Assembly (NCBI RefSeq): GCF_038051985.1
Contig: NZ_CP150291.1
Coordinates: 3,720,001 to 3,784,000 of the forward strand
DNA: 64,000 nucleotides
DNA from: Solibacillus sp. FSL H8-0523
GTDB lineage: Bacteria > Bacillota > Bacilli > Bacillales_A > Planococcaceae
Reading direction: 5' to 3'
Positions 33,280 through 58,285 of this stretch are shown here, piece after piece. A model generated the notes under the pieces. It did no database searches. It was not told where the DNA came from and saw nothing but the letters and a program-made list of their open reading frames with translations. The position numbers and the translations under genes were made by a program. Position 1 is the stretch's first letter, and each line of letters opens with the position of its first letter.

Positions 33280-34560
<1,281 letters not shown>

Positions 34561-34573
34561 TTAGGTTATCTAA

Positions 34574-34705
34574 CCCGTTGCTTTCCATTCCGGCGGACGC
34601 TTTCCACGGGCACGGCTCCAGCCTTCTCCCTCACTTCGTTCAGTCCGGGTGCTGCCGCTCGTGCTATTCCCGTAGGAGTCGCCACCTACATTCCAAGCAA
34701 CTAGA
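34574..34705. repeat. Dispersed palindromic repeat-like element
   Basis: About 130 bp, more GC-rich than its surroundings. Ends are GTTGCTT / AAGCAAC; inside, GGCGGAC can pair with GTCGCC and GGGcACG with CGTG...CCC, giving a long imperfect hairpin. The segment CGGCGGACGCTTTCC resembles an interspersed repeat I recall as frequent in Bacillales genomes. No open frame of its own. The multi-copy status cannot be shown from one window. Confidence 0.6.
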
Positions 34706-34753
34706 ATATTTCTTTAGCATTCGTTATACGTTTAATAAACTATAAAATTGTAT

Positions 34754-34789
34754 AAAAAAACGCCCGCCATAATTTAGGCGAGCGTTTTT
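34754..34789. terminator. Intrinsic terminator inside the purH-purD gap
   Basis: Stem AAACGCCCGCC / GGCGAGCGTTT with one mismatch, 8-nt loop, and T-runs on both sides (7 U on the minus strand). Its minus-strand reading would stop RNA coming from purH and the hairpin array before purD. Confidence 0.8.
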
Positions 34790-34793
34790 CATT

Positions 34794-35030
34794 AATGGTC
34801 GTTGACACTGCGCTACCCGACCAAAAGTAGTGCTGTGCGTAGTACAATCAATGATCATTTTTTATTAACGGTGCATCTCCCGGCCAAAGTCGATGCAGTC
34901 GTTAATGTTATTTTTTCCGATGAGGACCCGGCCAAGAATCCAAATCGTCTTATTTACCTGTCTCCCGGCCAGAGAGAAGATAAATAATGCATTTGCAAAC
35001 GCTTCTGCTAACGTCCGGCCAGAACATTAG
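34794..35030. other. Tandem array of five hairpins with a conserved CCCGGCCA loop
   Basis: Five non-identical stem-loops, each with the loop CCCGGCCA or a close variant. Loop positions: 34816-34823 (CCCGACCA), 34879-34886, 34927-34934, 34964-34971 and 35014-35021 (TCCGGCCA), spaced 63, 48, 37 and 50 bp apart. Stems: CACTGCGCTAC/GTAGTGCTGTG inside an outer AATGGTCGTTGA/TCAATGATCATT; TTAACG+TGCATC/GATGCA+CGTTAA; CGAT+GGA/TCC+ATCG; TTATTTA+TCTC/GAGA+TAAATAA; and GCTAA+GT/AC+TTAGC. Because stems differ and loops agree, the RNA structure appears selected. On the minus strand the loops read TGGCCGGG. I know of no named family that fits. Confidence 0.7.
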
Positions 35031-35043
35031 CGAAACATTATTC

Positions 35044-35072
35044 TATTATAAAGCTTTTTTTGAAATTTTTCT
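35044..35072 (-). promoter_or_regulatory. Candidate promoter downstream of purH
   Basis: On the minus strand TAGAAA is followed by 17 bp and a perfect TATAAT (35044-35049), 50 bp downstream of the purH stop. Together with the terminator at 34754 it would define a roughly 280-nt transcript covering the hairpin array. The -35 matches only 4 of 6 positions. Confidence 0.35.
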
Positions 35073-35097
35073 ACTATAATTGCTGGGAAAGTGATAA

Positions 35098-36633
35098 TTA
35101 GTGTTTGAAATGACGAACACCCGTGAACACCATTGTAATCCCTGCTTGGTTTGCTGCGTCGATAGAATCTTGGTCTTTAATCGATCCACCCGGTTGAATA
35201 ATCGCTGTAATACCTGCTGCGATTGCCGCTTCTACCGTATCTGCCATTGGGAAGAATGCGTCAGATGCAAGTGCTGCACCTTTTGCTTTTTCGCCTGCTT
35301 GCTCGAATGCGATTTTAGCCGCGCCTACACGGTTCATTTGACCAGCGCCTACACCTAGTGTCATTTGCGCATCTGTTACAACGATCGCATTTGATTTTAC
35401 GTGTTTCACAACTGACCAACCAAGTTGTAATGCTTCCCACTCTTGTTCAGTAGGTTCACGGTCTGTTACAACTTTAATGTCTGCATTAGCAAATCCGTAA
35501 CGGTCTGGCTCTTGTACAAGTAAGCCACCTTCAACCGATACCACATTGAATTGATCTTGCTTTTCTTGAGCGAAATCAATTGTTAATAGGCGAATGTTTT
35601 TCTTCGTCGTTAAAATTTCTAACGCTTCCGCACTAAAACTTGGTGCGATGATGATTTCTAAGAAAATGCCTGATAATTTTTCAGCCGTTGCTTTGTCTAC
35701 TTCCATATTTAACGCGATAATACCGCCAAAGATTGAAGTTGAATCTGCTTCGTATGCTTTATCGAATGCTTCTTCGATTGTTACACCTGTACCAACACCA
35801 CAAGGGTTCATATGCTTCACAGCAACTGCTGCTGGCATTTCAAACTCTTTAACGATTTGAAGTGCTGCATTGGCATCTTGAATATTGTTGTACGATAATT
35901 CTTTACCGTGTAATTGTGTCGCATAGGCGATTGAGAAGTCAGAGCCTAAACGTTTTGCATAGAACGCTGCTTTTTGGTGCGGGTTTTCACCGTAACGTAA
36001 TGTTTGTTTTAACTCATACGTTAACGTTAAGTTTTCTGGGAACTCATCACCAATCGCATTTGTTAAGTGATTTGAAATATACGAATCATAAGCCGCTGTA
36101 TGGCGGAATACTTTCGCTGCTAAACGACGACGTGTTTCTAATGTAGTTTTAGCATCTGCTTTTAATTCTTCTAAAACGACTGCATAGTCCGTTGAATCCA
36201 CGATTACTGTTACATAATCATGATTTTTTGCTGCAGAACGTAGCATCGTTGGACCGCCGATATCGATATTTTCGATTGCGTCATCCCAAGTAACATCTGG
36301 TTTTGAGATTGTTTCTACGAACGGGTAAAGGTTTACACAGACGATTTCAATTGGCTCGATTCCGTGCTCTTGCATTTGTGCAACGTGAGAAGGCTCATCA
36401 AATTTCCCTAACAGACCACCGTGGATCATTGGGTTTAATGTTTTTACACGGCCATCTAAAATCTCAGGGAACTTTGTTACTTCGTCCACTGCTGTTACCG
36501 GTACGTTGTTATCTTGTAATAATTTTTTTGTGCCACCTGTAGAAAGTACTTCATAGCCAAGTGCTACTAATTCTTTTGCAAATTCTAAAATTCCATTTTT
36601 ATCTGAAACACTAATAAGTGCACGTTTCGTCAC
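35098..36633 (-). CDS. purH: Bifunctional AICAR transformylase/IMP cyclohydrolase
   Basis: 511 aa from GTG 36633 (GGGGG upstream), which aligns with the usual [13 protein letters not shown] start. N-terminal cyclohydrolase domain (STGGTKKLL near residue 35), then the transformylase domain with KHMNPCGVG near 264. Catalyses the last two steps to IMP. Starts 63 bp after purN; followed by an unusual 567-bp gap before purD. Confidence 0.97.
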
Positions 36634-36696
36634 GACTAGGTCCCCCAATTTTTATTGTTTTCATTTCGGTAAGTACATGCCCTCTCATGGAGCGAC

Positions 36697-46794: not shown

Positions 46795-46867
46795 CGTTTG
46801 AAAAGAATATGAAGATGATAGCATCTCTATCCACACCCTTTAAAGTAATCGTACCAAAAGTTGCTTT

Positions 46868-46936
46868 CCCACATAGTCCGGAATTTACGGTACCGGGTAG
46901 AGACACTAGAGCCATATTCTCTAGCATATATGAGGG
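46868..46936 (-). promoter_or_regulatory. Purine (guanine/hypoxanthine) riboswitch aptamer, pur operon
   Basis: Reading the minus strand, the conserved core ATATGG, GTxTCTACC, CCGTAAA and GACTATG is present with paired P1-P3 arms. The base at the specificity position is C (GACTATG), which favours guanine or hypoxanthine over adenine. Lies 26-90 nt downstream of the promoter and upstream of a terminator, so it acts by transcription attenuation. Confidence 0.93.
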
Positions 46937-46958
46937 ATTAAATGTTTTTCCTGTACAC

Positions 46959-58137: not shown

Positions 58138-58203
58138 ACGATTTAAGGACAATAAATTCTATACCCCATTTATAGAGCTATAAAACCTATTTATAAATCG
58201 TAG
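58136..58203 (-). promoter_or_regulatory. Antiterminator helix of the pbuG riboswitch
   Basis: CTACGATTTA (forward 58136-58145) is an exact 10-bp complement of TAAATCGTAG (58194-58203), which holds the 3' strand of aptamer helix P1. When ligand is absent this helix can form and exclude the terminator. Confidence 0.7.
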
Positions 58204-58263
58204 TCGAATCATTTACGGTGATTCGGTAGAAACTTACGGGCCTTATTCCCGACATTATACGAC
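58199..58263 (-). promoter_or_regulatory. Purine (guanine/hypoxanthine) riboswitch aptamer, pbuG
   Basis: On the minus strand: P1 TCGTA/TACGA, core TTTCTACC and ACCGTAAA, then GACTACG. The specificity base is C, favouring guanine/hypoxanthine. The J1/2-P2 start reads AATAAGG instead of the usual ATATGG, a variant worth noting. Confidence 0.9.
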
Positions 58264-58285
58264 GACGTATTTAATTTATGATAGT

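Follow-up and report, generated by a model that had tools for sequence, protein, structure and literature searches.

A candidate RNA family with repeated UGGYC loops between purH and purD in Solibacillus and related genera

The gap between purH and purD in a 64-kb stretch of DNA from Solibacillus sp. FSL H8-0523 (the window) almost certainly encodes a selected, structured RNA on the minus strand, and its repeated hairpins make it a well-supported candidate for an RNA family, which matches nothing in Rfam at threshold. The first-pass annotation had described five stem-loops with a common loop between the two genes. All five are present, with the loop word CCCGGCCA on the plus strand at 34879-34886, 34927-34934 and 34964-34971 and its variants CCCGACCA at 34816-34823 and TCCGGCCA at 35015-35022, and every one of these words sits in the loop of a predicted hairpin. 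The array delimited by that annotation (34794-35030) is real, but the true unit is longer and occupies 34754-35050. Read on the minus strand from 35050 to 34754, which is the direction of the pur operon, it runs from a promoter-like TATAATAGAATAA through the five hairpins to an intrinsic terminator. As far as such signals go, this agrees with one of the two options offered earlier, a minus-strand RNA of roughly 280 nt running from TATAAT to the terminator. The evidence is comparative throughout.

The hairpin array and its strand

Within the window CCCGGCCA has three exact matches, all of them in the array, where 0.62 occurrences were expected and three were reached in one of 100 shuffles. The rest of the genome contains 25 further exact copies, nearly all of which are ATGGCCGGG; all were folded and none formed a hairpin array of this type, so that the array is not a by-product of a common word.

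When 34735-35097 was folded as RNA, the minus strand gave a z-score of -6.4 (none of 100 shuffles was as good), versus -2.4 for the plus strand. The sense (minus) fold was the more stable in 28 of 28 distinct loci, with a mean of -81 versus -59 kcal/mol for the antisense fold. Across 103 hairpins G-U pairs numbered 243 in the sense folds versus 61 in the antisense folds, and UGGYC was wholly unpaired in 93 of these hairpins when folded in the sense direction. The other option, a plus-strand RNA that would present CCCGGCCA antisense to the pur operon, had been argued from the G-U pairs of one hairpin, and the argument fails for the set of 103. Both strands carry inverted repeats, and the terminator is more or less symmetrical and gave weak antisense matches in the covariance-model search; against this, the sense strand folds better in every locus and by z-score, the G-U pairs are biased 4:1 towards it, and the TATAAT block belongs to the minus strand. 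We consider a plus-strand RNA extremely improbable. The repeated loops and their variants noted earlier stand, but as the RNA sense is minus, the loop is to be read as UGGCC or UGGUC followed by GG.

Table 1. Features of the purH-purD region, in window coordinates.
Feature	Position	Strand	Remarks
purH	35098..36648	-	Upstream gene; ORF; tblastn match in all array loci
-10 box TATAAT	35045..35050	-	Part of conserved block TATAATARAATAAWGUUUCR
Inferred RNA, ~285 nt	34757..35039	-	Putative start ~7 nt after TATAAT, end in U tract; sharp conservation borders; fold z -6.4; 16/16 Solibacillus and four other genera
Hairpin 1	34998..35039	-	Loop UGGCC 35021-35017; fold; co-varying stem
AGCGUUU	34997..35003	-	Adjoins hairpin 1 on its 3' side; possible strand of an antiterminator
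Hairpin 2	34950..34987	-	Loop UGGCC 34971-34967; fold; covariation; lost or decayed in some genera
Hairpin 3	34918..34947	-	Loop UGGCC 34934-34930; fold; covariation with one bulged base; lost in L053/L054
Hairpin 4	34864..34906	-	Loop UGGCC 34886-34882; conserved bulged A; fold; covariation
Hairpin 5	34789..34854	-	Loop UGGUC 34823-34819; fold; loop kept in all species
Intrinsic terminator	34757..34789	-	Stem, then U7; 5' arm holds AAACGCU (34781-34787)
purD	33280..34530	-	Downstream gene; ORF; 3' of array in all complete loci

Distribution, borders and likeness to known RNAs

When relatives were searched at the DNA level, the region turned up in each of the 15 congeners of the set and in three other genera. 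The unit, invariably located between purH and purD, is shared by all 16 Solibacillus genomes and four further genera of the family (Caryophanon, Metasolibacillus, the Lysinibacillus odysseyi group and one more); loop conservation in relatives, on which the first-pass annotation had staked its proposal, is thus borne out. A covariance model of the whole array, R1, was run on more than 200 genomes of the family with strict filters, which diverged arrays could escape, and gave strong matches in five genera only (g1, g15, g16, g18 and g19, where the labels of g15 and g18 rest on sequence match or inference); each array match that was read had purH and purD on either side and the same orientation. 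When named genomes were scanned for the pattern, Solibacillus palustris, S. faecavium, S. merdavium, Lysinibacillus odysseyi, Bacillus ndiopicus, Metasolibacillus meyeri and Caryophanon latum were added, and outside purH-purD loci there were only chance matches. No further arrays were found in a wider draw of 261 genomes of the order and 399 of the class, where the extra matches read were terminators without a loop array, and plasmids and phages had no match. The arrays at other loci that had been suggested as a check were found neither by the covariance models nor by the pattern searches of relatives: no second copy turned up in these genomes or in other genera, with the full model giving terminators only in the rest of the family and class, four of which were read, and the single-hairpin model R2, which has little power, separated just one locus of Solibacillus clearly from background, the purH-purD array. 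In a tree of PurH and PurD the array-bearing rows all fall to the same side of a single branch (support 72/59), and a single origin of the array is possible. The gaps share one plan, consisting of TATAATAGAATA, hairpins with UGGYCGG, AGAAGCGUU (AAAAGCGUU in one) and the terminator AAACGCUCGC.

Conservation runs from the TATAAT block to the U tract. TATAATA.AATA is invariant in 13 representatives of the five genera, and the 60 nt upstream of the block are hardly conserved, save for a weak TAG about 17-26 nt upstream. A generic promoter scan reported TAGAAA-17-TATAAT with 10 of 12 matches, the -35 element being weak. We infer that the block is a promoter, giving a transcript of about 285 nt.

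Searching 34500-35150 against Rfam 15, including the T-box, the PyrR site, the purine riboswitch and others, gave nothing at or above the gathering threshold, and with E up to 5 there were sub-threshold matches only, nearly all covering the terminator; the earlier remark that no named family with this loop was known agrees with Rfam 15 at threshold. A literature search for the loop sequence or for Solibacillus found nothing relevant, and the mention of purH in a motif list from the Breaker laboratory (50 genomes) concerns an unrelated Thioalkalivibrio RNA. There are nevertheless partial likenesses. TRAP binds 9-11 NAG repeats between spacers, and its sites, unlike those described here, are not hairpin loops; what the array has in common with the TRAP-bound trp leader is the use of several short repeats, there bound by one multimeric protein in attenuation (PMC4347634). 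The PyrR-type attenuators of pyr operons (PMC4347634) are similar in belonging to a nucleotide-synthesis operon and in having a terminator, a possible antiterminator and an upstream stem that sequesters it, but the array has no Rfam PyrR-site match, a different loop, several copies per leader, and purine rather than pyrimidine genes. CsfG (ylbH RNA, RF00516), a conserved multi-loop small RNA of Bacillaceae (PMC3574147), differs in its CU-rich loops and was rejected as the same RNA, as this genome has no RF00516 match and the B. subtilis control was positive. The CsrB/RsmZ decoys are likewise short RNAs with several stem-loops, a common loop element and an intrinsic terminator, RsmZ having four stem-loops and a terminator (PMC4005645). 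Their loops, however, carry A(N)GGA, whereas here the loop is UGGYC with GG in the closing stem, and among 47 distinct hairpins every GGA lies in the stem and comes from an A as third closing base. The genome does encode CsrA (PF02599 match at G000:C1:593189-593344, 89 bits).

Two purine riboswitch aptamers lie on the minus strand of the window at 46854-46953 and 58181-58282, the first of which precedes the pur operon with the array in its purH-purD gap.

A constant loop on changing stems

The number of hairpins per unit varies from three to five: most units have five, Caryophanon latum and part of g18 have four, and L053 and L054 have three. Hairpins 1, 4 and 5 are retained in every case, and hairpin 2 is absent from L049-L054. 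In the 47 distinct hairpins the columns U, G, G, C, G and G (UGG-CGG) are invariant, position four of the loop is either C or U, and all other columns are below 90%; this set excludes the few aberrant copies, such as those with AGGCC in L018, UGGCU in L019 and L020 and a four-base loop in L025, every one of which is a hairpin 2. The loop of hairpin 4 is UGGUC in many other species. The stems co-vary, with the proviso that the shuffle counts overstate significance because related genomes are not independent: both sides had changed in 82 cells versus 43 in shuffles (0 of 500 as high), 82% of hairpin 1 was paired versus 59% with shuffled arms (0 of 2000), hairpins 1-4 scored higher than any of 2000 arm shuffles (with one base bulged in 3 and 4), and hairpin 5 was not significant in this ungapped test. 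The true stem register also beat slid registers in cells paired and in covariation score. Unit length ranges from 216 to 300 nt and varies by non-triplet indels, so that a conserved reading frame is unlikely, and a coding unit was rejected.

Invariant loops on co-varying stems argue that selection acts on the presented loop, kept several times over, rather than on any particular stem sequence; the loop, being the same on freely changing stems, would then be what the cell uses. The first-pass suggestion that the RNA is structured, under selection and equipped with a repeated binding loop accordingly agrees with the invariant loop, the co-varying stems and the conservation, while binding itself is predicted from these patterns. 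The three to five hairpins would be interchangeable scaffolds presenting UGGYC, closed by weak Y-G pairs, and the loop probably binds a partner and controls or accompanies the next gene. A single partner could be bound several times, either a protein or, if the loops kiss each other, the loops themselves. In the latter case UGGYCG loops would pair within or between molecules (U-G, G-C, G-Y, Y-G, C-G, G-U), and the RNA would be compacted or dimerised. The loop is self-complementary, the common tolerated change of C to U at Y still pairs with the G of the partner loop, and the motif exceptions in the first alignment fall in the dispensable hairpin 2. Self-complementarity and C/U tolerance would fit kissing as well as protein binding, but the same pattern would be expected of a protein, or of a different RNA carrying G there, and loops of five bases are tight for a kiss of 4-6 bp unless the closing U-G pairs open. 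We regard self-association, which could be combined with either of the roles considered below, as unlikely. Pairing of UGGUCGGG with the 3' end of tRNA-Pro (CCCGACCA) was dropped as a main idea, as many loops have C at Y and would leave a mismatch.

With the stems free and one loop fixed, the signature is unusually clean and suggests a specific partner that could be retrieved with a single bait. A protein partner would be a regulator that recognises RNA by a loop motif of which we know no other example; if the loops kiss, this would be a natural repeated-kissing RNA.

The terminator and purD

The 5' arm of the terminator, ACGCUCGC, is nearly invariant (GCGCUCGC in one genome), and the 3' arm varies. 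In Caryophanon (L026, L045 and L049) a changed 3' arm leaves a C.A mismatch, and the 5' arm is unchanged, as if it had a second role. AGCGUUU is invariant in four genera (AGCGUUA in g18); in the consensus its GUUU lies outside hairpin 1, yet it too is unchanged in the four. Among upstream stretches complementary to the terminator 5' arm it is the longest in each representative tested (tied in L048), and it forms 7 bp with AAACGCU (6 bp in g18) between near-invariant blocks in which no compensatory change was seen; the chance of such a complement per genome is about 0.01-0.1 at a length of 7-8 nt and 0.26-0.29 at 6 nt. When Solibacillus transcripts were truncated ahead of the terminator 3' arm, the pairing core had a probability of about 0.75-0.97; the corresponding folds of L025, L027, L048 and L050-L054 (L025, g18 and part of g19) did not favour the pairing.

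Between the end of the terminator and the start of purD there are 33-266 nt, so that purD, unless separately transcribed, would depend on read-through if the terminator works; the distance is only 33-43 nt in L012, L010, L045, L047 and L048, a space into which a separate purD promoter could hardly fit outside the terminator. As in a transcription attenuator, the sequence places a U-tract terminator between the TATAAT block and the gene. Transcripts from the array promoter and from the operon would share this one terminator, and we therefore propose, as a favoured though still tentative reading, that the array works as a structured leader or attenuator of purD that is also released as a small RNA, its repeated loops binding their partner multivalently. 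Transcription of a lineage-specific structured RNA would start between purH and purD at a promoter of its own, run in the pur operon direction and end at the intrinsic terminator directly ahead of purD. As long as AGC stayed engaged in the base of hairpin 1, the terminator would form, and most transcripts would end there as small RNA; if AGCGUUU instead paired with AAACGCU, the terminator would be opened and purD transcribed. Antitermination of this kind is plausible, with odds that we put at roughly even. The fuller proposal, a new class of RNA in which a new recognition element, a UGGYC pentaloop on exchangeable stems, is bound by an RNA-binding protein or kisses itself and controls purD, the final gene of the purine operon, by antitermination, is more doubtful.

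Beyond fold, strand, covariation and unit borders, the attenuator reading is favoured by the constant position ahead of purD in five genera, by the short distances to purD, by AGCGUUU/AAACGCU, kept in four genera, and its pairing in truncated Solibacillus transcripts, by the unchanged terminator 5' arm in Caryophanon, and by the terminator-like hairpins that sister genera without the array often have in the same gap (six or so genera, e.g., L103-L105, L109, L110 and L113); other genera without the array have gaps of 14-25 nt and no hairpin. However, the position is uninformative in itself, because purH and purD are also neighbours in genera that lack the array and one inherited origin is possible. 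The complementarity may be due to chance, shows no compensatory variation, is only 6 bp in g18 and is disfavoured in several truncated folds, and the -35 element is weak. The hairpins of the sister genera also make it ordinary in the family that purD transcription passes such a structure, which suits the main rival explanation. Here the array would be a stand-alone, trans-acting, Csr-like decoy whose three to five identical loops titrate an RNA-binding protein (not CsrA, by the usual motif), with leaky termination serving purD, which would not be its target. The promoter-like block, the terminator and the sharp borders suit such an RNA, and identical loops on unrelated stems in three to five copies are a hallmark of titration RNAs. 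On the other hand, the loops are without the A(N)GGA of CsrA sites, the array was never found away from purD, and neither a second array nor a conserved single hairpin marking regulated mRNAs was seen elsewhere in Solibacillus, although the single-hairpin model has little power. We hold a decoy to be possible, if rather unlikely. The array also raises the question of how purD is expressed past a strong-looking terminator within its own operon.

Repeats also occur between the terminator and purD. A GC-rich dispersed repeat with about 20, mostly partial, genomic matches occupies 34560-34712 of the window; it is missing at this place in many congeners, and similar-looking repeats are found in L018-L020 and L049. 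The g18 genomes (L051-L053) have tandem-like CGCAGATAA repeats there.
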